Shown in pieces: positions 1 to 14,122 of a stretch of 64,000 bases of DNA. Every line of letters begins with the position of its first letter. Positions within the stretch are counted from its first letter, which is position 1. The position numbers and the translations under genes were made by a program. Location: positions 1,302,001-1,366,000 of the forward strand of contig NZ_JABTEX010000002.1 in assembly GCF_015711645.1 (NCBI RefSeq), in the 5' to 3' direction. Source of the DNA: Planomonospora sp. ID82291 (lineage in GTDB: Bacteria; Actinomycetota; Actinomycetes; Streptosporangiales; Streptosporangiaceae). The notes beneath the pieces are model-generated. The model did no database searches, was not told where the DNA came from, and was given only the letters and a program-made list of their open reading frames with translations.

Positions 1-740
1 AACATGCGGCGGGCGGTGAAGCGCCCGTACGGCTGGCTGCCCTGATCGTAGCCGGGGACGAAGGTCCAGTTCTCCGCCCACGCGCCGGCGCCGTCCTTGA
101 CGCAGTGCCCGGCCGTGACGACGAGGTCGCGGTTCCCGCTCCGCACCGAGCTCGCCGAGCAGACGAAGTCGACCCCGCCGAGGGTGAGGAACACGCGTCC
201 GGTGGTGCTGCGCACCGCGCCGCCCGCGGTCCAGCGGGCTCCGCTGGTCACGGCGGTGGCGGGGGCGGAGGCCCGGCGGCGGGCGGGGGAGGTCAGGCCC
301 GGCGCGCCCGGTCTTCCGGTGAGCGCGGTGACCGGGCCCAGGGCCGGGGTGCCCGGTCTTCCGGTGAGCGCGGTGACCGGGCCCAGGGCGCCGGCGAGCG
401 TGTCGAGCAGGCCGAGCGGGACGGCCCTCGCCATCCGGCGGGGGGTCCAGTAGCCGAGCACGCGGCGCTGCTCCGCCGCGCTGCGGGCGGCCGCGTGCTC
501 GACGATGTCGGGGCCGCCCGCGCCCCCGCTGCCCCGGAAGGCCTTCCCGGCGGTGTGCACCGTGCTCCGGGGGGTCGTCCCCGCGGGGCGCGCGGGGGTC
601 CGGGGCAGGGCCGCGGCCACCACGCCGGCGCCGACGAGGCCCCGTCCGTGCTCGGGGGCGGTCGTCGCGGAGGTGAGGGGGGCGCCCGTCAGCCCGATGG
701 CGAGGGGGACGGCCGCAAGCAGGGCGAGGCTCGGGGTCAT
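1..740 (-). CDS. trypsin-like serine protease, 3' part beyond window
   Basis: Secreted chymotrypsin-fold peptidase, cut by the left window edge after about 246 codons. The ATG at 740 opens a signal peptide (hydrophobic LLAAVPLAIGL). A low-complexity propeptide-like stretch follows, then the catalytic His motif TAGHC near residue 210 and the downstream WTFVPGYDQG block. The Asp and Ser parts lie outside the window. It is a tandem paralogue of the complete protease at 792-1874, which has the same motifs in the same order, and lies 51 nt downstream of it on the same strand, so the pair is probably co-transcribed. The linker carries a perfect 15-residue duplication. The family call is firm; the substrate is unknown. 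Confidence 0.8.
   Translation of the reverse strand, partial: MTPSLALLAAVPLAIGLTGAPLTSATTAPEHGRGLVGAGVVAAALPRTPARPAGTTPRSTVHTAGKAFRGSGGAGGPDIVEHAAARSAAEQRRVLGYWTPRRMARAVPLGLLDTLAGALGPVTALTGRPGTPALGPVTALTGRPGAPGLTSPARRRASAPATAVTSGARWTAGGAVRSTTGRVFLTLGGVDFVCSASSVRSGNRDLVVTAGHCVKDGAGAWAENWTFVPGYDQGSQPYGRFTARRM
306..389. repeat. 45-nt tandem duplication inside the protease linker
   Basis: A block starting GCCCGGTCTT at 306 repeats at 351 with a 45-nt period and almost no mismatch. It adds 15 residues in frame (ALGPVTALTGRPG unit twice) to the propeptide-like region of the partial protease. It looks like a recent slippage or recombination duplication. Confidence 0.85.
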
Positions 741-791
741 GAGCCCGAGTGTGCACTACCCCGGGTTTCCTTGTGGCTACTTTGCGTGAAG

Positions 792-1874
792 CTACGGGGC
801 CTCGGCGCCCTGGGCGGCCTGGTAGACGGCCTGGGCCTCCACCCCGAAGTAGGGGCCGAGCATCCAGCCGCTCGCGAAGCCGTACTTGAAGCTGTTCACC
901 GAGTTCAGCGTGCCCAGCCCGGTGGCCTCGTCGAAGTCGAGGAACCACGGCCCGCCGCTCGACCCGCCCGTCATGTCGCAGTTCAGCCCGAGGTCGCGGG
1001 ACATCAGGAAGTCGTCGAAGGCCCGGCCGCTGCAGTAGACCAGCGTCGAGCCGTCGTAGGGGGCGGCGGCCGGGTAGCCGAAGGCGTGCATCTGCCGCCT
1101 GCGCGCCTGGTTGAAGGCGACCCCCTGGCCGCCGACCACGTCGGTCAGGTGCCGCCCGTCCAGCGGGGCCACCACGGCGGCGGCCACGTCGTGGTCGATG
1201 TCCTCGGCGTTGTTCCACTGCGGGGTGGTGTAGAGCGCGGTGGCGACCCAGGTGCCGTGCGGCCGCTCGCCGCGGTCGTACCCCGGCACGAACACCCAGT
1301 TGGTGTGGAAGGCGCCGCCCATCTTCACGCAGTGCCCGGCGGTGATCACCGTGCTCCTGTTCTCGCTGGTCACCGCGTTGCCGGAGCAGGAGGCGTTCCG
1401 TCCCCGGTAGGTGAAGAAGACCCGTCCGGCGGTCCCGGTGACGGCTCCGCCGCGGGTCCAGGGGGAGCCGTCGACGGCGCGGGCGGTCCGGGCGGGGGCG
1501 GACGGCGCGCCCGTGCGGCCGGCCGCGGCGCTTCCGCCGCCCCCGCCGTCCGCGCCGTCCGGGGCGGTCGCGGGGACGGAGGACGGGGCGGCCGCGGCCT
1601 GCGCGGCGGACGCGGAGCCGGTGAGCCGGACGCCGTCCTTGCGGGGGGCCAGGGCGTCGAGCGGCCGGGCCGCCTCCATCCGCGCCTCGGTCCAGTAGCG
1701 GCGCACGACGCGCTGCTCGGTCCCGGTGCCGGCGGCCTCCCGCTCCACGGGGGCGGGGGTCGCGGGTGCGGCGGGGCCCCCGGCGGCCCCGGCCGCGGCC
1801 GGGGAGAGCAGCGTCCCCCCCGCGGCGAGGGCGAGAAGGGGGACAAGGGGGACAAGGCGTGCCGTGCGGTGCAT
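792..1874 (-). CDS. secreted trypsin-like serine protease (S1 fold)
   Basis: Extracellular serine peptidase of 360 aa. A signal peptide (LVPLVPLLALAAGG, about residues 7-20) precedes a Pro/Ala-rich propeptide of about 130 residues. The catalytic domain shows the triad: His181 in TAGHC, an Asp at about 227-229 in DIDHDVA, and Ser306 in GGSSGGPW. Paired cysteines flank the His and Ser regions. The layout resembles the V8/glutamyl endopeptidase-like secreted proteases of actinomycetes, but specificity cannot be read here. It is the first gene of a two-gene paralogue array on the minus strand and is divergent from dxr, with about 180 nt between the two starts. Confidence 0.85.
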   Translation of the reverse strand: MHRTARLVPLVPLLALAAGGTLLSPAAAGAAGGPAAPATPAPVEREAAGTGTEQRVVRRYWTEARMEAARPLDALAPRKDGVRLTGSASAAQAAAAPSSVPATAPDGADGGGGGSAAAGRTGAPSAPARTARAVDGSPWTRGGAVTGTAGRVFFTYRGRNASCSGNAVTSENRSTVITAGHCVKMGGAFHTNWVFVPGYDRGERPHGTWVATALYTTPQWNNAEDIDHDVAAAVVAPLDGRHLTDVVGGQGVAFNQARRRQMHAFGYPAAAPYDGSTLVYCSGRAFDDFLMSRDLGLNCDMTGGSSGGPWFLDFDEATGLGTLNSVNSFKYGFASGWMLGPYFGVEAQAVYQAAQGAEAP

Positions 1875-2056
1875 GTGGACCTCCCGAGACCTGGATGCTG
1901 ACTCGGGAAGCTAGTGCGCCGGATATCCGCATTTCTCAAGATTTACGACTATTGATATGACGGGATTCGGGCGTAAATCGCGATTTTCATCGGGTGTTTC
2001 TCGGGTCACGGATTCCGGCGGTCCACCGCACGCCGGACGCCCGCGAGAATGGGACG

Positions 2057-3241
2057 ATGCAGCCAGACACCACCCGCTCCGTCGCCCTGCTCGGCTCGAC
2101 CGGCTCCATCGGGACCCAGTCCCTCGACGTCATCGCCCGCAACCCCGGCAGGTTCCGGGTGGCGGCGCTCGCCGCCGGAGGCGGCCGGATCGACCTGCTG
2201 GCCCGCCAGGCGGCCGAGTTCCGGCCCGAGGCGGTGGCGGTGGCCGACCCGGCGGCCGTGCCCGCGCTGAAGGAGGCGCTGGCCGCCCGCGGCGTGACCG
2301 CGACGGTCCTGGCCGGACCCGAGGGGGTCGCCGAGGCGGCGGCCTGGCCGTGCGACACCGTGCTCAACGGCATCACCGGCGCGCTCGGGCTGACCTCGAC
2401 GCTGGCCGCGCTGGAGGCCGGCCGGACGCTCGCGCTGGCCAACAAGGAGTCGCTGATCGTCGGCGGGCCGCTGGTCAAGCGCCTGGCCAAGCCCGGGCAG
2501 CTGATCCCGGTCGACTCCGAGCACGCCGCGCTCGCCCAGTGTCTGTGGGCGGCCGGGCCCACCGGCCCCGACGCCTCCGCGGTGCGCAGGCTGGTCGTCA
2601 CCGCCAGCGGCGGGCCGTTCCGCGGCCGGTCCCGCGCGGAGCTCGTCGGGGTGACGCCGGAGCAGGCCCTGGCCCACCCGACCTGGTCGATGGGGCCGGT
2701 CATCACGGTGAATTCGGCCACACTCGTGAACAAGGGCCTGGAGGTCATCGAGGCCCACCTGCTCTTCGACGTCGGGTTCGACCGGATCGACGTCGTGGTG
2801 CACCCGCAGTCGGTCGTGCACTCCATGGTGGAGTTCACCGACGGCTCGGTCATCGCCCAGGCCAGCCCGCCGGACATGCGGCTGCCCATCGCGCTCGCCC
2901 TCGGCTGGCCCGAGCGGGTCACCGGCGCCGCCCTCCCCGTCGACTGGACCCGGGCCCACACCTGGACCTTCGAGCCGCTCGACGACGAGGCGTTCCCCGC
3001 GGTCGCGCTCGCCCGCCACGTCGGTTCCGCGGGCGGCACGGCCCCGGCCGTCTACAACGCGGCCAACGAGGTCTGCGTGGAGGCGTTCCTGGGCGGGCGG
3101 CTGCCGTTCCCCGGCATCCTGGACACCGTGGCCGCGGTCGTCGCCGAGCACACCCCCGGCGAGGCCGGTTCGGCGGAGGAGGTGCTCGCCGCCGACGGGT
3201 GGGCGCGGATCCGGGCCCGGGAGCTCACCGCCACCTCGTAG
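2057..3241 (+). CDS. dxr: 1-deoxy-D-xylulose 5-phosphate reductoisomerase
   Basis: Converts DXP to 2-C-methyl-D-erythritol 4-phosphate with NADPH, the first committed step of the MEP isoprenoid pathway, in the cytoplasm. The 394-aa protein has normal family length. The N-terminal Rossmann motif [13 protein letters not shown] lies at residues 13-25, followed by the NKESLIVGG and metal/substrate motifs (VDSEH, SGGPFR) and the C-terminal AANE helix. I chose ATG 2057 because it places GSTGSIG at the usual distance from the start; GAGAAT at 2045-2050 ends six bases before it, so the gene may be leaderless. ispG follows 44 nt downstream, without the intramembrane protease gene usually found between them in actinomycetes. 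Confidence 0.96.
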
Positions 3242-8368: not shown

Positions 8369-8785
8369 TCACCCCGCGACGGCGCGGCCGGCCTCGCGTT
8401 CGAGGTTGTCGAGGAGCCGCTCCAGCACCGCGTCGTGCTGCCGGCGGATGAGCACCGGCCACAGGAGCCGGAACAGGCCGGTGGTCCGGCCGGTGATCTC
8501 GTGCCGGACGAGGGTGCCGCCCTCGGCGGGGTGGAGGGTGAAGCCGTGCCCGCCGGTCATCTCCCGGGTGTCGAACCACAGCCGGCGGCAGGGCTCGACG
8601 GCGCCGACGCGGTAGCGCATCGGGCCGTGCTCGACGGGGGCGCCGGGGCGGGCGCCCTCGGGCAGGCGGAAGCCGCCCTTCTCCTGCGGCCAGAGCCGGT
8701 CGCCCTCGCCGCCGAGCCCCATGAGCAGGTCCCAGACGCGCTCGGGCGAGGCGGGGATGAGGCGTTCGTGCATGTTGTACACCAT
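8369..8785 (-). CDS. SRPBCC/START-fold protein
   Basis: 138-aa single-domain protein of the polyketide cyclase/START superfamily. It opens MVYNMHERLIPASPERVWDLL (split here for length: helix ASPERVWDLL), has the central RLWFDTREMTGGHGFTL strand region and ends in a long amphipathic helix with RRQHDAVLERLLDNLE. Such proteins bind hydrophobic ligands; the ligand is unknown. ATG 8785 has a strong GGAGGAG five bases upstream. It is divergent from a TetR gene, and the 62-nt gap is almost filled by a large palindrome, so it is very likely the TetR target. Confidence 0.8.
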   Translation of the reverse strand: MVYNMHERLIPASPERVWDLLMGLGGEGDRLWPQEKGGFRLPEGARPGAPVEHGPMRYRVGAVEPCRRLWFDTREMTGGHGFTLHPAEGGTLVRHEITGRTTGLFRLLWPVLIRRQHDAVLERLLDNLEREAGRAVAG

Positions 8786-8794
8786 GGGACTCCT

Positions 8795-8835
8795 CCATAC
8801 GGTTGCGTACGGCCCGACTGTACGCCTCCGTATGG
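8795..8835. promoter_or_regulatory. TetR-type operator between SRPBCC gene and tetR
   Basis: Two 16-nt arms, CCATACGGTTGCGTAC (8795-8810) and GTACGCCTCCGTATGG (8820-8835), are complementary at 14 of 16 positions around a 9-nt spacer. Each arm also contains a small palindrome of type TACGNNNNCGTA (8798-8809 and 8821-8832), so two dimers may bind. The right arm abuts AAGACT (8836-8841), a -10 candidate for the TetR start at 8848. Confidence 0.75.
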
Positions 8836-8847
8836 AAGACTGTGCGG

Positions 8848-9393
8848 GTGGGTCGGCTGAACGCGGGGGACTGGGCGAGAGCGGCGCTGGAGGCGCTGGC
8901 CGAGGGCGGCCTGGCGGCGGTGGCGGTGGAGCCGGTGGCCGTACGGCTCGGCGCCACCAAGGGCAGCTTCTACTGGCACTTCGCCAACCGCCGGGCGCTG
9001 GTCGAGGCGGCGCTGGCGCTCTGGGAGTCCGGCACCGAGGAGATCATCGCCGGGCTGCTGGAGATCCCCGACCCGGCACTGCGCATGCGCACCCTGCTGG
9101 AGTTCGCCTTCGGCGACCCGGTGGACTCGAAGATCGCCTTCCAGCTCGTCAGCGCGGCCGACGATCCACTCGTCGCCGAGACGGCCCGGCGGGTGAGCGC
9201 GCGCCGGCTGGAGTTCATGGGGGCCACGCTGGAGGAGGCCGGGCAGCCGCCGGGCCTGGCCCGGGGGCGCGCCGTGGCCGGCTACAGCGTCTACCTCGGG
9301 ATGGCCGCCCTGCACCGGGTCGGCGCGGTGGACGAGCCGATCGGCGCCTTCATGGACCTGGCCCTGTCGGAGATGGGCCTGGCCGGCTCCTGA
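8848..9393 (+). CDS. TetR/AcrR family transcriptional regulator
   Basis: 181-aa repressor-type regulator. The N-terminal helix-turn-helix (about residues 8-52) contains LAAVAVEPVAVRLGATKGSF and YWHFANRRALVEAAL, the TetR signature, followed by an all-helical ligand-binding domain. It is divergent from the SRPBCC gene and the operator lies between them, so autoregulation and repression of that gene are expected. GTG 8848 was chosen because AAGACT ends six bases upstream (leaderless); GTG 8842 is a near alternative. Inducer unknown. Confidence 0.88.
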   Translation: MGRLNAGDWARAALEALAEGGLAAVAVEPVAVRLGATKGSFYWHFANRRALVEAALALWESGTEEIIAGLLEIPDPALRMRTLLEFAFGDPVDSKIAFQLVSAADDPLVAETARRVSARRLEFMGATLEEAGQPPGLARGRAVAGYSVYLGMAALHRVGAVDEPIGAFMDLALSEMGLAGS

Positions 9394-9492: not shown

Positions 9493-10212
9493 CTACCGGC
9501 CGTCGGTGAGGCCCTCGGCGACCCTCCTCAGCTCGCGGTCGACGGCCGCGTCGCCCAGTTCCTCGGCGTAGACGGGGCTGAACGCGATCAGGGCCCGCCG
9601 CCGCTCGCCCATGGTGAGGTAGAGGACGGGGGTGCCCTTCATGCCGTCCTCGCCGACGCCCATGAGGGCCCGGTAGCCCTTCCGGCCGCCGACGGTCACC
9701 TCTCCGCCCTCCCCCTCGCCGCGATGCGCCTGGACGATGTCGTCGAACTCCTGGACGGCCCGGTCCTCGAACACCGTGATCTGGACGCAGTAAGGGCCCT
9801 CGGCGTCCCCGTCGCGGTTCCACGAGGTCCAGTAGGTGTCGCCGTTGTCGACGGACCAGTGCGACCACCGCAGACCGGGCGGCAGGTAGCCCGCCTCGAC
9901 GCGCCCGAACGCCTTGCCGTCGCCCAGGTCCCCGAGGTCCGGGGGAGCGGACTGCGGGAGAGGGGTGTCGTCGACGGCGGGCGGAGCCGGCGTCTCGGTG
10001 ACGGCGGGCGTCGACAGGGCGCCGGGGGCCGCCGTCAGGTAGGCGGGCGGCGCCACGGCGACGGCCAGCGAGGCGGCCAGGGCCGCGATCCTGTTCTGCT
10101 TCCGCCTGCGCCGCGCGGACCGGACGATCCGCTCCGTGAGGTCGGGCGCGGCGTGCAGCCCCGCCGTCGCGTCCGCCATGATCCGGTGGAGCCGGTCCTC
10201 AAATGCGGGCAT
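9493..10212 (-). CDS. membrane-anchored protein encoded with SigE-family sigma factor
   Basis: 239-aa protein with a cytoplasmic head of about 40 residues (MPAFEDRLHRIMADATAGLHAAPDLTERIVRSARRRRK region), one transmembrane helix at about residues 43-65 (IAALAASLAVAVAPPAYL) and an extracellular domain with no recognised catalytic motif. The head-TM-sensor layout and its position overlapping the 3' end of the sigma gene by 14 nt suggest an anti-sigma or signal-input protein (inference). It lacks the HxxxCxxC zinc anti-sigma motif. It matches no named family that I recognise with confidence. Confidence 0.7.
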   Translation of the reverse strand: MPAFEDRLHRIMADATAGLHAAPDLTERIVRSARRRRKQNRIAALAASLAVAVAPPAYLTAAPGALSTPAVTETPAPPAVDDTPLPQSAPPDLGDLGDGKAFGRVEAGYLPPGLRWSHWSVDNGDTYWTSWNRDGDAEGPYCVQITVFEDRAVQEFDDIVQAHRGEGEGGEVTVGGRKGYRALMGVGEDGMKGTPVLYLTMGERRRALIAFSPVYAEELGDAAVDRELRRVAEGLTDGR

Positions 10213-10711
10213 TGCCGATCACTCCTTCCACGGATGTCTCTCCGAGTGCGGTACGCAGCTTGGCCAGCGCCTTCGACGCCTGGCTCTTCACCGTGCCGAC
10301 CGCGCAGCCGAGCGCCTCCGCGGTCTGGGCCTCGGTGAGGTCCTCCCAGTACCGCAGGACGACCACCGCACGCTGCCGGGGAGGCAGGCCGCGCAGCGCG
10401 TCCATGAGGACGTGGCGCAGGTCGACGTCGGCCGGGCGCGTCGGCCGCTCGGGCAGGGCGCGCGCCGGGACGATGCGCAGGATCGCCCGGCGGCGGGCCC
10501 GGCTGATGGCGGTGTTGACGATGGTGCGGCGCACATAGGCCTCGACGGTGTCGTGCCGTACCCGCTCCCAGTTCCGGTAGGTGCGCTCCAGCGCGCTCTG
10601 CAGCAGGTCCTCCGCCTCCGCCCGGTCCCCGCAGGCGAGATAGGCGACCCGGAGCAGGCTCGTGGCCCGGGCGGCCACGAAGTCGCCGAAGTCGTGGTCG
10701 GCGCGGCTCAC
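10199..10711 (-). CDS. SigE-family ECF RNA polymerase sigma factor
   Basis: Two-domain extracytoplasmic-function sigma factor of 170 aa. Region 2 covers about residues 8-70 (DFVAARATSLLRVAYLACGD, AEDLLQSALERTYRNW). Region 4 covers about 110-160 (LPPRQRAVVVLRYWEDL, TVKSQASKALAKLR). Its size and the YLACGD motif fit the actinomycete SigE family. I chose GTG 10711 because it aligns with family N-termini; a GTG at 10819 would add 36 Pro/Arg-rich residues and would run through the divergent promoters, so it is unlikely. A seven-codon GTG reading frame (10731-10708) ends overlapping this start and might couple translation. It is probably autoregulated from 10739-10767. Confidence 0.85.
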   Translation of the reverse strand: MSRADHDFGDFVAARATSLLRVAYLACGDRAEAEDLLQSALERTYRNWERVRHDTVEAYVRRTIVNTAISRARRRAILRIVPARALPERPTRPADVDLRHVLMDALRGLPPRQRAVVVLRYWEDLTEAQTAEALGCAVGTVKSQASKALAKLRTALGETSVEGVIGNARI

Positions 10712-10738: not shown

Positions 10739-10767
10739 GATACGCCTCGGCGGCTCGGGAGGTTGCC
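10739..10767 (-). promoter_or_regulatory. ECF-type promoter for the sigma operon
   Basis: Read on the minus strand: GGCAACC (plus 10761-10767), 16 nt, then CGTATC (plus 10739-10744). The start point would fall about 20 nt before the sigma GTG. It is the mirror copy of the promoter at 10779-10807, with identical hexamers and spacing, which argues for recognition by one sigma factor, presumably the adjacent one. Confidence 0.6.
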
Positions 10768-10778
10768 CCTGCGGCGCG

Positions 10779-10807
10779 GGCAACCTTCCGGGGCGCCCGG
10801 TCGTATC
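10779..10807 (+). promoter_or_regulatory. ECF-type promoter for the exported protein gene
   Basis: GGCAACC (10779-10785), 16 nt, CGTATC (10802-10807); predicted start near 10814, giving a leader of about 28 nt to ATG 10842. The two -35 elements form the arms of an inverted repeat (10757-10768 with 10778-10789). Confidence 0.6.
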
Positions 10808-10841
10808 AGAGGGCGTCACCTGGCGAGTCTGGAGGAATCAT

Positions 10842-11882
10842 ATGAAGCTCGGGACCGTGCGGATCCGTCCGCTGATCGCGACGGGCGCCGTTCTGGCGGC
10901 GTTGGCCGCCGCCGTTCCGTCCGCGCAACCCGGCCCGGGGAGGACGCCGGAGCTGCGGCTCGCGAGCGCCGCGTGGGCTCCCCCCGAAGGCGCCTACTGG
11001 CACACGCGGGTGCTGTGGACGACCACCCACCCCCGGCGGTTCGGCGGAGGGCCGCACAAATACCGGTTGACGGTGCGGGAACTGAGCGAGGACTGGTCCG
11101 CCCCGGACGGCAGATCCTGGACAGGATGGCGTGAGCCGGGCGTGTACCCCGCGGGCGCGGCGGACCGGCAGGCGTGGCGCCGCGACGGCTCGCCGAAGAA
11201 GTGGACCCGTACGGCCGACGGGCAGGTCGTGTCGCTGTCCACCCGGCCCGACAAGGGCCACGTCGGGCCCGTCCCGGGAGACGACACGTTCCTGCTGTCG
11301 GAGCAGCGGCTGACGTACGACGAGATCCAGCGGCTGCCCGCGGACCCGGGCGGGCTGACGTCCTGGCTCGCCCGGGTCGCGCGGGTCGAGGGGGGCGAGA
11401 AGACGGACGTGGACGACTTCGTCACCGGGACGCTGACGGAGCTGCTCTTCCGGTTCCCCGCGCCGAAGGAGGTCCGCGCCGCGGCCTACCGGGCGTTGCG
11501 GACGATGCCCGGTGTCCGGGTGAAGGGAACGGCGAAGGACGGCGCCGGCCGGACCGGCACGCTCCTGTCCATCAGGCGGGGAACCGGGGGCACGGTCGTG
11601 CGCGGCGATCTGATCGTCGACACCGCGACGATGCTCCTGCTGGCCGAGGAGCTGGAGACCACGGACGACGGCAAGCCGTTACCGGAGCAGACCGGCACCC
11701 GGACCGTGCTCCAGGCCGGCTGGACCGACGCCGGGCCGGCCGTGCCCGCCCTGCCGTGGCGCGGCGCGGCACGGGACCGGAGCGGCGAGGCCGGGCGGCG
11801 TGAGCGCCCGCCCGGACGCGCCAGCCGCGGGGGCCGGGCGCGTGCGGGCGGGGCCGGCGGGCCTGGCCTGAGCATCACATGA
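10842..11882 (+). CDS. exported CU044_5270-like protein, likely sigma-regulon member
   Basis: 346-aa protein. A signal peptide or anchor spans about residues 10-28 (ATGAVLAALAAAVPSAQPG), followed by a globular exported domain (WAPPEGAYWHTRVLWTTTH, ELSEDWSAPDGRSW, LPADPGGLTSWLARV, LFRFPAPKEVRAAAYRAL). This resembles the CU044_5270 family often found next to SigE-family sigma genes in Streptosporangiaceae (recalled; unverified). The role is unknown. ATG 10842 has GGAGG at 10831-10835. It is divergent from the sigma operon and shares its promoter architecture, so it is the first candidate target of that sigma. The Arg/Gly-rich tail after about residue 310 is low complexity. Confidence 0.75.
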   Translation: MKLGTVRIRPLIATGAVLAALAAAVPSAQPGPGRTPELRLASAAWAPPEGAYWHTRVLWTTTHPRRFGGGPHKYRLTVRELSEDWSAPDGRSWTGWREPGVYPAGAADRQAWRRDGSPKKWTRTADGQVVSLSTRPDKGHVGPVPGDDTFLLSEQRLTYDEIQRLPADPGGLTSWLARVARVEGGEKTDVDDFVTGTLTELLFRFPAPKEVRAAAYRALRTMPGVRVKGTAKDGAGRTGTLLSIRRGTGGTVVRGDLIVDTATMLLLAEELETTDDGKPLPEQTGTRTVLQAGWTDAGPAVPALPWRGAARDRSGEAGRRERPPGRASRGGRARAGGAGGPGLSIT

Positions 11883-11974: not shown

Positions 11975-14122
11975 GTGCCGTATGCGCAGCCGCTCAGACC
12001 GGGGGATCCCGAAAGACTGGGCGCGTACGAGATCGTCGGCCGTCTGGGCGAGGGCGGGCAGGGGACGGTGTACCTCGGGATGCGTCCCGACACCGCTCCC
12101 GAGCCGTACGCGGTCAAGGTGCTGCACGGCCGGATCACCGACGAGCGGGAGGCGTTCCTGCGGGAGGTGGGCCTGGCCAAGCAGGTGGCCCGGTTCTGCA
12201 CCGCGCAGGTGATCGACGCGGGACTGGCCGACGACCGCCCCTACATCGTCAGCGAGTTCGTCGACGGCCCGTCCCTGCACCGCGAGGTCGCCGTCGGCGG
12301 GCCGAGGAGGGACGGCGCGCTGGAGCGGCTGGCCATCGGCACGGCCACCGCGCTCACCGCGATCCACCGGGCGGGGATCGTCCACCGGGACTTCAAGCCG
12401 CAGAACGTGCTGCTCGGTCCCGACGGGCCCCGGGTCATCGACTTCGGGCTGGCCCGGGCGCTGGACGCGGCGGCCACCCAGAGCGGACGCGGTGCGGGCA
12501 CCCCCGCCTACATGGCGCCGGAGCAGGTGGAGGGGGCCGAGATCGACCCGGCCGCCGACGTCTTCTCCTGGGGCGCGACCATGTGCTTCGCGGCCAACGC
12601 CCAGGCGCCGTTCGGGCAGGACTCGATCGCGGCCGTGCTGCACCGCATCCTCACCGCGGAGCCGGAGCTGGGCGACCTCGACGGGTGGCTCGCCGCGCTG
12701 GTCGCCGTCTGCTTGGACAAGGACCCCCGCAACCGGCCCACGAGCCGCGAGCTCCTGCTCACGCTGCTCGGCGACGGCGACGGCGCCGAGCCCGGTGAGA
12801 GCGGGGCCGGGCTCACCGCGGAGCCCGGCGGCGGGAGGCCCGCCGCCGGTGCGGACGGGAGCGGGCCCGCCGCCGGTGCGGACGGGAGCGGGCCCGCCGC
12901 CGGTGCGGACGGCGGTGTCGCCGCGGGTCCCGGCGGGAGCGGGGAGCGGGGGGAGGAGCGGTCGCTCCGCGCCGGTGCGGCCTCCGTCCGGCCCGTGTCC
13001 GGTCCCGTCTCCATCCGCTCGGTCTCCGCTCGGCCGTTTCCCGCCGCTGCGATCCCCGCGGGCGCGCTCCCCGCGCCCTGGGAGGCCGGTGCCGTACGGA
13101 GCCTCTCCGAGGAGGAGCCCGCCGGGACGCGCACGCACCCCGGCCGGGCGGCGACCAGGGCGTCGATGGCGGTCTCCGGATCGCTCCTGGTCAGCGCCGC
13201 GGTGCTGGTGGGGGTGCTGGTCCCGGCCCTGAGCGGGAACGGGGGACCGATCGGGGGAGGGCGGACGCCCGTGCCGCCGACGGAGTCCGGCCCGTCGTCG
13301 GTCCTCGCCGAGCGGGTGGAGACCAGCGCGGAGTCCGGCCCGCTGGTCCCCCGCCGGGAGCACCGCACCGTGCCGGCCAGGAACGTCTCCGGTGCGGGCG
13401 GGCCGGCCACGGTCCCGGCCGGAGGGGTCGCGGTGCCGCCGGTGGCGGGACTGGAGCGTTCCGAGGCGCGCCGCGTCCTCGAAGACGCCGGGCTGGCGGC
13501 GGGGAGCGTCGTGCGGGCCGACTCCGCCGAGCCGATCGGCCGGGTGCTGGGGAGCGTGCCGGAGGCGCGGACCGTGGTGGCCAGGGGCACCCGGGTCCGG
13601 CTGCGGATCTCGGCGGGCGTGCCCGTCCCCGACCTGACGGGGCTGCGCAGGAAGGCGGCCGGGGACGCGCTCCGGGCGGCGGGGCTGGGGGTCGGGGCGG
13701 TGACGGCGCTCTGCTCGGACCGCCCCTCCGGGCAGGTGCTCGCGACCAGCCCCGGGGCGGGCGAGCGGATCTCCTCGGGCGGCGCGGTCGCGATGACGGT
13801 GGCACGGCGCGGGGCGGCGGTGCCCTCGGTGGTCGGCGCGGCCGAGGCGGACGCGCGCGGCGCGCTGACCGCGGCGGGCTTCGCCGTGCGGACGCGGGCG
13901 CGGCCGGTGGACGGGGCGCGGGCCGGGACGGTGCTGGCGCAGAGCGCGGGCCCGGGCGGATGCGTCCGGCCGGGGGTCACGGTGGTGATCACCGTCGGGG
14001 TCGGGATGCAGAGCGGGCCCGGCCCGGGGGAGGAGCCGACCCCCGCACCGGATCCCGGGGGACCGGCCGAGCCGACGAGCACGGCGGGCGCGGCGATCCC
14101 GGGATCGGTGGAGGTCTCCTGA
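11975..14122 (+). CDS. PASTA-domain Ser/Thr protein kinase (PknB-like)
   Basis: 715-aa membrane kinase. The kinase domain spans about residues 17-270, with glycine loop GEGGQGTV, ATP-binding Lys48, catalytic HRDFKPQN (137-144), DFG at 156-158 and APE at 181-183. A low-complexity linker holds a 27-nt tandem repeat (12839-12912; AAGADGSGP units). A transmembrane helix (about 390-415, SGSLLVSAAVLVGVLV) precedes three extracellular PASTA repeats (PVAGLERSEARRVLEDAGL, PDLTGLRRKAAGDALRAAGL, PSVVGAAEADARGALTAAGF). PASTA kinases sense muropeptides or lipid II and control growth and division. GTG 11975 is set by GGGGAGG six bases upstream. The MMPL exporter follows downstream. Confidence 0.9.
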   Translation: MPYAQPLRPGDPERLGAYEIVGRLGEGGQGTVYLGMRPDTAPEPYAVKVLHGRITDEREAFLREVGLAKQVARFCTAQVIDAGLADDRPYIVSEFVDGPSLHREVAVGGPRRDGALERLAIGTATALTAIHRAGIVHRDFKPQNVLLGPDGPRVIDFGLARALDAAATQSGRGAGTPAYMAPEQVEGAEIDPAADVFSWGATMCFAANAQAPFGQDSIAAVLHRILTAEPELGDLDGWLAALVAVCLDKDPRNRPTSRELLLTLLGDGDGAEPGESGAGLTAEPGGGRPAAGADGSGPAAGADGSGPAAGADGGVAAGPGGSGERGEERSLRAGAASVRPVSGPVSIRSVSARPFPAAAIPAGALPAPWEAGAVRSLSEEEPAGTRTHPGRAATRASMAVSGSLLVSAAVLVGVLVPALSGNGGPIGGGRTPVPPTESGPSSVLAERVETSAESGPLVPRREHRTVPARNVSGAGGPATVPAGGVAVPPVAGLERSEARRVLEDAGLAAGSVVRADSAEPIGRVLGSVPEARTVVARGTRVRLRISAGVPVPDLTGLRRKAAGDALRAAGLGVGAVTALCSDRPSGQVLATSPGAGERISSGGAVAMTVARRGAAVPSVVGAAEADARGALTAAGFAVRTRARPVDGARAGTVLAQSAGPGGCVRPGVTVVITVGVGMQSGPGPGEEPTPAPDPGGPAEPTSTAGAAIPGSVEVS

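Follow-up and report, generated by a model that had tools for sequence, protein, structure and literature searches.

Between a gene for a small, stress-type ECF sigma factor of the soil actinomycete Planomonospora sp. ID82291 and a divergently oriented gene for an exported protein, the same promoter-like motif stands once on each strand, in mirror image, and the locus raises the question of whether one sigma factor reads both copies and, if so, what the exported protein does for the system. An earlier note had proposed GGCAACC-N16-CGTATC as the recognition motif, with its -35 boxes forming an inverted repeat at the centre. Within the window, that is, the whole 64,000-nucleotide stretch of DNA analysed here, both exact matches were recovered at their places (Table 1), with none in 100 shuffles of the window, and the facing -35 boxes indeed make up the perfect palindrome GGTTGCC-N11-GGCAACC. 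The two 29-mers are identical at 23 of 29 positions, and their spacers at 10 of 16. A scan of the whole 7.58-Mb genome, as the earlier note had asked for, returned the two window copies and nothing else, against ~0.2 copies expected by chance from the base composition of the window and none for the reversed control pattern. AAC at -35 and CGT at -10, the form of autoregulated ECF promoters, are present upstream of the sigma gene. Among 394 genomes drawn from the class, a draw containing few carriers of the locus, the strict mirrored pair occurred in one, the window's own. Comparative evidence set out below makes it very likely that a single ECF sigma factor reads both back-to-back promoters, firing its own operon with the partner gene as well as the divergent gene for the exported protein.

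Table 1. Features of the mirrored locus, in window coordinates.
Feature	Coordinates	Strand	Details
SigE-family ECF sigma factor gene	10199..10711	-	GTG start; 170 aa; TIGR02983 and Pfam; start matches orthologs
Partner gene, putative membrane anti-sigma	9493..10212	-	239 aa; overlaps sigma stop; topology by eye and from model
Divergent exported protein gene, CU044_5270-related	10842..11882	+	346 aa; N-terminus resembling a signal peptide (by eye); cytoplasmic part absent
Sigma-side promoter	10739..10767	-	-35 GGCAACC 10761-10767; -10 CGTATC 10739-10744; N16
Divergent promoter	10779..10807	+	-35 GGCAACC 10779-10785; -10 CGTATC 10802-10807; N16
Ribosome-binding site GGAGGA	10831..10836	+	5 nt 5' of ATG 10842; read directly

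The assignment of the sigma factor to the SigE family is borne out by TIGR02983 (183.4 bits over residues 3-158, cut-off 141.55), and the Pfam domains Sigma70_r2 and Sigma70_r4_2 were found above their cut-offs, the protein consisting of regions 2 and 4 only. A longer reading frame starting at 10819 is disfavoured, since it would place the promoter within the gene and the orthologs agree with the start at 10711. The downstream partner has a cytoplasmic N-terminus of ~40 residues, a single transmembrane helix and an ectodomain, as judged by eye and from the predicted model, and profile searches returned no family match for it. Zinc-binding anti-sigma factors (ZAS) carry the signature HxxxCxxC, which is absent from the partner, with its single Cys in 239 residues; its cytoplasmic stretch is also short by comparison with a class I anti-sigma domain. 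The N-terminal 55 residues recur, at 53-60 bits, on four proteins with other ectodomains (L168-L171), all of them encoded directly 3' of a sigma gene, as expected for a sigma-binding module. From the gene overlap, the topology and this N-terminal module common to other sigma neighbours, we regard the partner as a putative membrane anti-sigma factor. The exported protein scored 87.8 bits against NF038083 (CU044_5270), below the curated cut-off of 100 and with profile positions 1-40 missing, and is therefore a relative rather than a member of that family, the name of which was absent from the full-text literature searched. In the CU044_5270-type proteins of L023, L005 and L006, inspection by eye placed a cytoplasmic segment and a membrane helix before the domain, near a sigma gene; the protein of the window and its counterparts in 12 named relatives begin instead with a short stretch that, by eye, resembles a signal peptide.

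Additional features were recorded on either side of the locus. An inverted repeat at 8795-8835 (CCATACGGTTGCGTACGG ... CTGTACGCCTCCGTATGG), between a TetR-family gene listed at 8803-9393, the real start of which may lie lower down, and a divergent ORF at 8369-8785, looks like a TetR operator. A perfect 27-base tandem repeat (2.8 copies, 12837-12912) lies in the linker of a PASTA kinase gene, 3' of the kinase domain.

To follow the locus across the family, 341 genomes were searched with the partner protein, not the promoter, as query; named species contributed 13 related contigs, and there was one weak match besides. The resulting set comprised 30 loci and 40 further stretches among the matches listed, plus the named-species contigs, which after removal of 15 duplicates from among L003 and L043-L126 gave 45 distinct loci among the matches listed: that of the window and 44 found through the partner. 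Left out were L044, in which the sigma and exported genes are truncated across the promoter region, L052, in which the sigma match covers residues 97-169, three stretches with no sigma match (L086, L105 and L111), the partial L104 and the paralogous sigma factors of L106-L126. In the Nonomuraea deserti contig (L044/L025/L078), the truncated sigma and exported genes abut and the whole promoter region is gone, which reflects either a deletion or an assembly fault.

A position weight matrix, trained on the very loci that it scored, found a sigma-side promoter in 45 of 45 loci and a divergent promoter in 43 of 45 among the matches listed, with accepted scores of 10.8 to 24.9 and all others between -10.3 and -5.1; no promoter was scored in L044 and L052. 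Of these 45 loci, 42 were found to contain the exported gene, every one with a divergent promoter, and in the stretches examined for the remaining three a divergent promoter was present in one. This is L103 (G405), where a TGTAT-type divergent promoter is kept and now stands before a longer ORF and a frame for a small acidic protein; neither the exported gene nor a divergent promoter was found in the stretches examined for L098 and L102. With a strict regular expression, both promoters were detected in 39 of the 45 listed loci and in none of 9000 mononucleotide shuffles. The unit does not appear to extend further: at a threshold of 1e-8, the 13 loci from named relatives contained no match to any of six proteins flanking it in the window (a single weak match appeared at 1e-3), whereas the sigma factor and the partner, as positive controls, were matched in 13 of 13, placing the window's flanking genes outside the conserved unit.

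In the 88 ortholog promoters among the matches listed, conservation runs at 93-100% over the opening six bases of the -35 box and the opening five of the -10 box, and at 39-91% over spacer positions (70 promoters with N16). At the seventh position of the -35 box, 50 of the 88 have C and 35 have G, and just four end their -10 box in C, so that of the motif originally proposed a conserved core stands and its exact ends do not. The conserved consensus is GGCAAC(C/G)-N16/17-CGTAT, which we cut to a core of GGCAAC-N17/18-CGTAT. Consistent with this trimming, the exact 13-base form occurred only 12 times in 198 related genomes (10 genomes, two of the matches being those of the window), against seven control matches. 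That the matching boxes arose by chance or through a functionless recent duplication, as the 23 identical positions between the window 29-mers might hint, is next to impossible, a chance origin being refuted by the shuffles, the genome scan and the retention of the boxes in 43 listed loci while spacers and gaps vary.

These gaps also bear on the palindrome. From one -35 box to the other, the distance in the 43 loci among the matches listed is 10 bp (2 loci), 11 (8), 21 (2), 22 (10), 23 (11), 42 (3), 45, 66 and 79 (one each), 94 (3) and 98 bp (1). The perfect GGTTGCC-N11-GGCAACC of the window would suit a single operator, bound by a dimeric repressor or activator controlling both genes, but half-sites that lie anywhere from 10-11 through 21-23, 42-45, 66 and 79 to 94-98 bp apart, each keeping its own -10 box 16-17 bp off, largely refute such an operator and leave it very improbable. 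A role for the central inverted repeat as such accordingly finds no support; what the comparison strongly supports is two promoters conserved with the two genes, whereas the palindrome does not keep a fixed form. Gap lengths fall into clusters at about 11, 22 and 42-45 bp, a hint of helical phasing that comes from few independent classes.

The strongest evidence that one sigma factor very probably reads both promoters is a joint change of their -10 boxes with a single sigma residue. The -10 box begins with T rather than C in L070 (Nonomuraea fuscirosea, the same as L084), L096 and L103, each time on both promoters: the boxes on the sigma and divergent sides, respectively, are TGTGT/TGTGT in L070, in which the fourth base is changed as well, TGTAT/TGTAT in L096 and TGTAC/TGTAT in L103. 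Residue 70 of the adjacent sigma factor is Asn in all three T-type loci and Ser (41) or Asp (1) in all 42 C-type loci among the matches listed, and it is the sole column among the 170 of the sigma factor that separates the two types. The three T-type loci fall in three separate places of a tree built with column 70; a tree built without it calls for three changes in each promoter trait and four in residue 70. The three independent pairs all agree on the link, although three are too few for a sign test to reach significance (p = 0.25). Because both promoters and residue 70 of the neighbouring sigma factor change in step, one sigma factor is very probably responsible for both, as the earlier note had anticipated, and the ECF form of the promoters and their conservation with both genes point the same way. 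Autoregulation and co-regulation by the adjacent sigma factor are thereby strongly implied by the comparison of sequences.

By residue offset, rather than by a printed alignment, residue 70 corresponds to N92 of Mtb sigmaH, which makes contact with the C base in the G:C pair at -11, adjoining the switched base (PMC6411747). Alignment to Mtb SigE, SigW and SigL placed an Asp of Mtb SigE at the position of residue 70; residues H54 and D60 of Mtb sigmaL, considered as counterparts, belong to another loop in this alignment. Among 88 other SigE-family genes, the motif was found for 39, with a C-type box accompanying Ser in 29, Thr in six, Arg in one and Asp in two, and a T-type box accompanying Asp in one; for the lone Asn-70 case in this set, no promoter motif was found.

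In the genome of the window, GGCAAC-N17-CGTAT occurs at two sites only, both at the locus. The looser GGCAAC-N17/18-CGTAY gave 11 sites against one for the control, and when the remaining nine were checked roughly for ORFs, nothing convincing emerged in favour of a larger regulon. Across 30 genomes carrying the system, there were 69 GGCAAC-N17-CGTAT sites, 45 at the locus and 24 elsewhere (a split counted by hand), against four for the reversed control, indicating that related sigma factors share the motif or that the regulon is larger. One off-locus case is a stand-alone second exported gene (L172; G311:C240, 1143-2147), 56% identical over residues 1-307, with a GGCAACC-CGTAT box at 1143, 36 nt upstream, and no sigma match within the 4 kb fetched, which makes it a candidate trans target.

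Similar boxes also precede related SigE-family sigma factors, with GGCAACC-CGTAC in L110, L125 and L126 and GGCAACC-CGTAT in L171 and L175; in L171 (G086), another of the 24 off-locus cases, the box lies at ~2277, just before a paralogous sigma gene whose product is 64% identical. A paralogous sigma clade (L106-L124, mostly 51-58% identical) has CAACC-N16-CGTTGG or a near form upstream, of autoregulatory type, and no divergent exported gene was found with it. Such boxes would allow the adjacent sigma factor to fire only its own promoter, the divergent one being used by a paralogous SigE-family sigma factor of overlapping specificity. This division of labour is improbable, as in all three T-type loci the change from C to T hits the same base of both promoters and is accompanied by Asn-70 in the neighbouring sigma factor. 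In L110 (G081, 2-2552, minus strand), two SigE-family sigma-partner modules lie in tandem. In one of the two partners, a PASTA domain (Pfam, 47.5 bits) precedes an ectodomain resembling the C-terminal domain of RseB; in the other, the same N-terminal module is joined to an ectodomain of another kind.

With one sigma factor reading both promoters, a plausible circuit would be as follows. The partner would hold the sigma factor at the membrane, the exported protein would sense a signal or stabilise the sigma-partner complex, and an envelope signal, perhaps lipid or cell wall, would free the sigma factor. Once freed, it would raise the levels of all three proteins, combining positive autoregulation with delayed negative feedback. 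Transcription would be expected from both promoters; at the 11-bp gap of the window, one polymerase may keep a second from binding, whereas at gaps of at least 22 bp both may bind. Equal firing of the two promoters, the balance foreseen by the earlier note, is for this reason not to be assumed.

The roles given here to the partner and the exported protein draw in part on their predicted folds. The model of the exported protein has a pLDDT of 75; its top Foldseek matches were unrelated chains (PNGase and ApoB), followed by RseB, MucB and LolA with E values of 0.002 to 0.04 and low TM-scores. In a second structural comparison, LprG came first at Z 6.6, and RseB, through its N-terminal domain, reached Z 6.2 (rmsd 4.4, 132 aa), all matches remaining below Z 7 and the RseB domain being tied with LprG, LolA and other half-barrels. 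The partner model (pLDDT 68 overall) has an ectodomain that is confident from about residue 100, for which BT_1490 ranked first (Z 11.4) in the second comparison, followed by a tied group of Tsi3 (10.1), the C-terminal domain of RseB (9.9, rmsd 2.6, 91 aa), 3lyd (9.6) and Apa (9.5), with PsbP/Mog1 folds lower at 8.0-8.8; in Foldseek itself, MucB stood at rank 40. Profile searches with 13-member alignments yielded no convincing Pfam or PDB match linking either protein to RseB. Middling as these matches are, they suggest an exported protein akin to the lipid-binding, LolA-like half of RseB at its N-terminus and a partner ectodomain akin to the docking half at its C-terminus.

From these fold likenesses and the recurring N-terminal module, we propose a split RseB: the partner, a single-pass anti-sigma factor with an RseB-C-like ectodomain, and the RseB-N-like exported protein would together form an envelope sensor holding the sigma factor, a proposal to which we give almost an even chance. 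The exported protein may instead be an output only, for example a lipid or lipoprotein carrier of the LprG or LolA type that stands outside sigma control, which is distinctly possible, if somewhat below an even chance. It would agree with LprG as the top structural match, with the failure to find the exported gene in three of the 45 listed loci that have sigma factor and partner, and with the extra stand-alone exported gene under the same promoter in one genome. The CU044_5270-type proteins of L023, L005 and L006 speak against it, as their layout near a sigma gene, with the domain behind a cytoplasmic segment and a helix, suggests a sensing role. The fuller picture, in which the halves of a split RseB are made from the mirrored promoters of the very sigma factor that they control and a Ser/Asn-70 one-residue switch of the -10 box has been used three times, we consider unlikely as a whole.

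Autoregulated ECF modules with AAC/CGT promoters are already well known. They were reportedly used by Todor et al. (2020) to match sigma residues to promoter bases. Their hallmarks, in the accessible part of one account, are AAC at -35, CGT at -10 and a cotranscribed anti-sigma factor, and one prediction method classed ~55% of the ECFs that it covered as autoregulated (PMC8103513). The window locus shares with them the promoter form, the self-promoter and the overlapping downstream gene for a membrane protein, but adds a mirrored second promoter for a divergent exported protein, and its partner is without a recognised anti-sigma domain. In Streptomyces coelicolor, sigmaE, which shares the TIGR02983 family by name, uses GGCAACC...CGTCTT with N16 at hrdD, thus the same -35 box and spacer length, but the -10 of its targets is mostly CGTC rather than the CGTA seen here; moreover, according to the portion of the source available, sigmaE does not act on the sigE promoter, which depends on CseBC, and an anti-sigma factor is absent (PMC6767563). 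Escherichia coli RpoE-RseA-RseB and Pseudomonas aeruginosa AlgU-MucA-MucB, as described in the accessible parts of two sources, have the same set of components, namely an ECF sigma factor, a membrane partner and LolA-like and RseB C-like domains, the likeness here being one of predicted fold (PMC7400510, PMC8103513). Whereas RseB and MucB hold both domains on one protein, the two RseB-like domains of the window sit on two proteins, one of them membrane-tethered, and have no sequence match to RseB. The CU044_5270 family has a homologous exported domain, but the window gene points away from the sigma gene rather than following it. Neither the mirrored module, nor the residue-70 switch, nor a split RseB arrangement was found in the literature searched, a body of text outside which most subscription papers lie.

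The locus provides a recognition motif for an uncharacterised sigma factor, with two sites of the conserved form in the genome of the window. The residue-70 change amounts to a natural experiment on ECF specificity, in which one residue and one base have changed repeatedly, in three lineages and at two promoters each. If the split into two RseB-like proteins is true, actinomycetes would sense the state of their envelope through a switch related or analogous to that of RseB, and CU044_5270-type proteins would gain a function.
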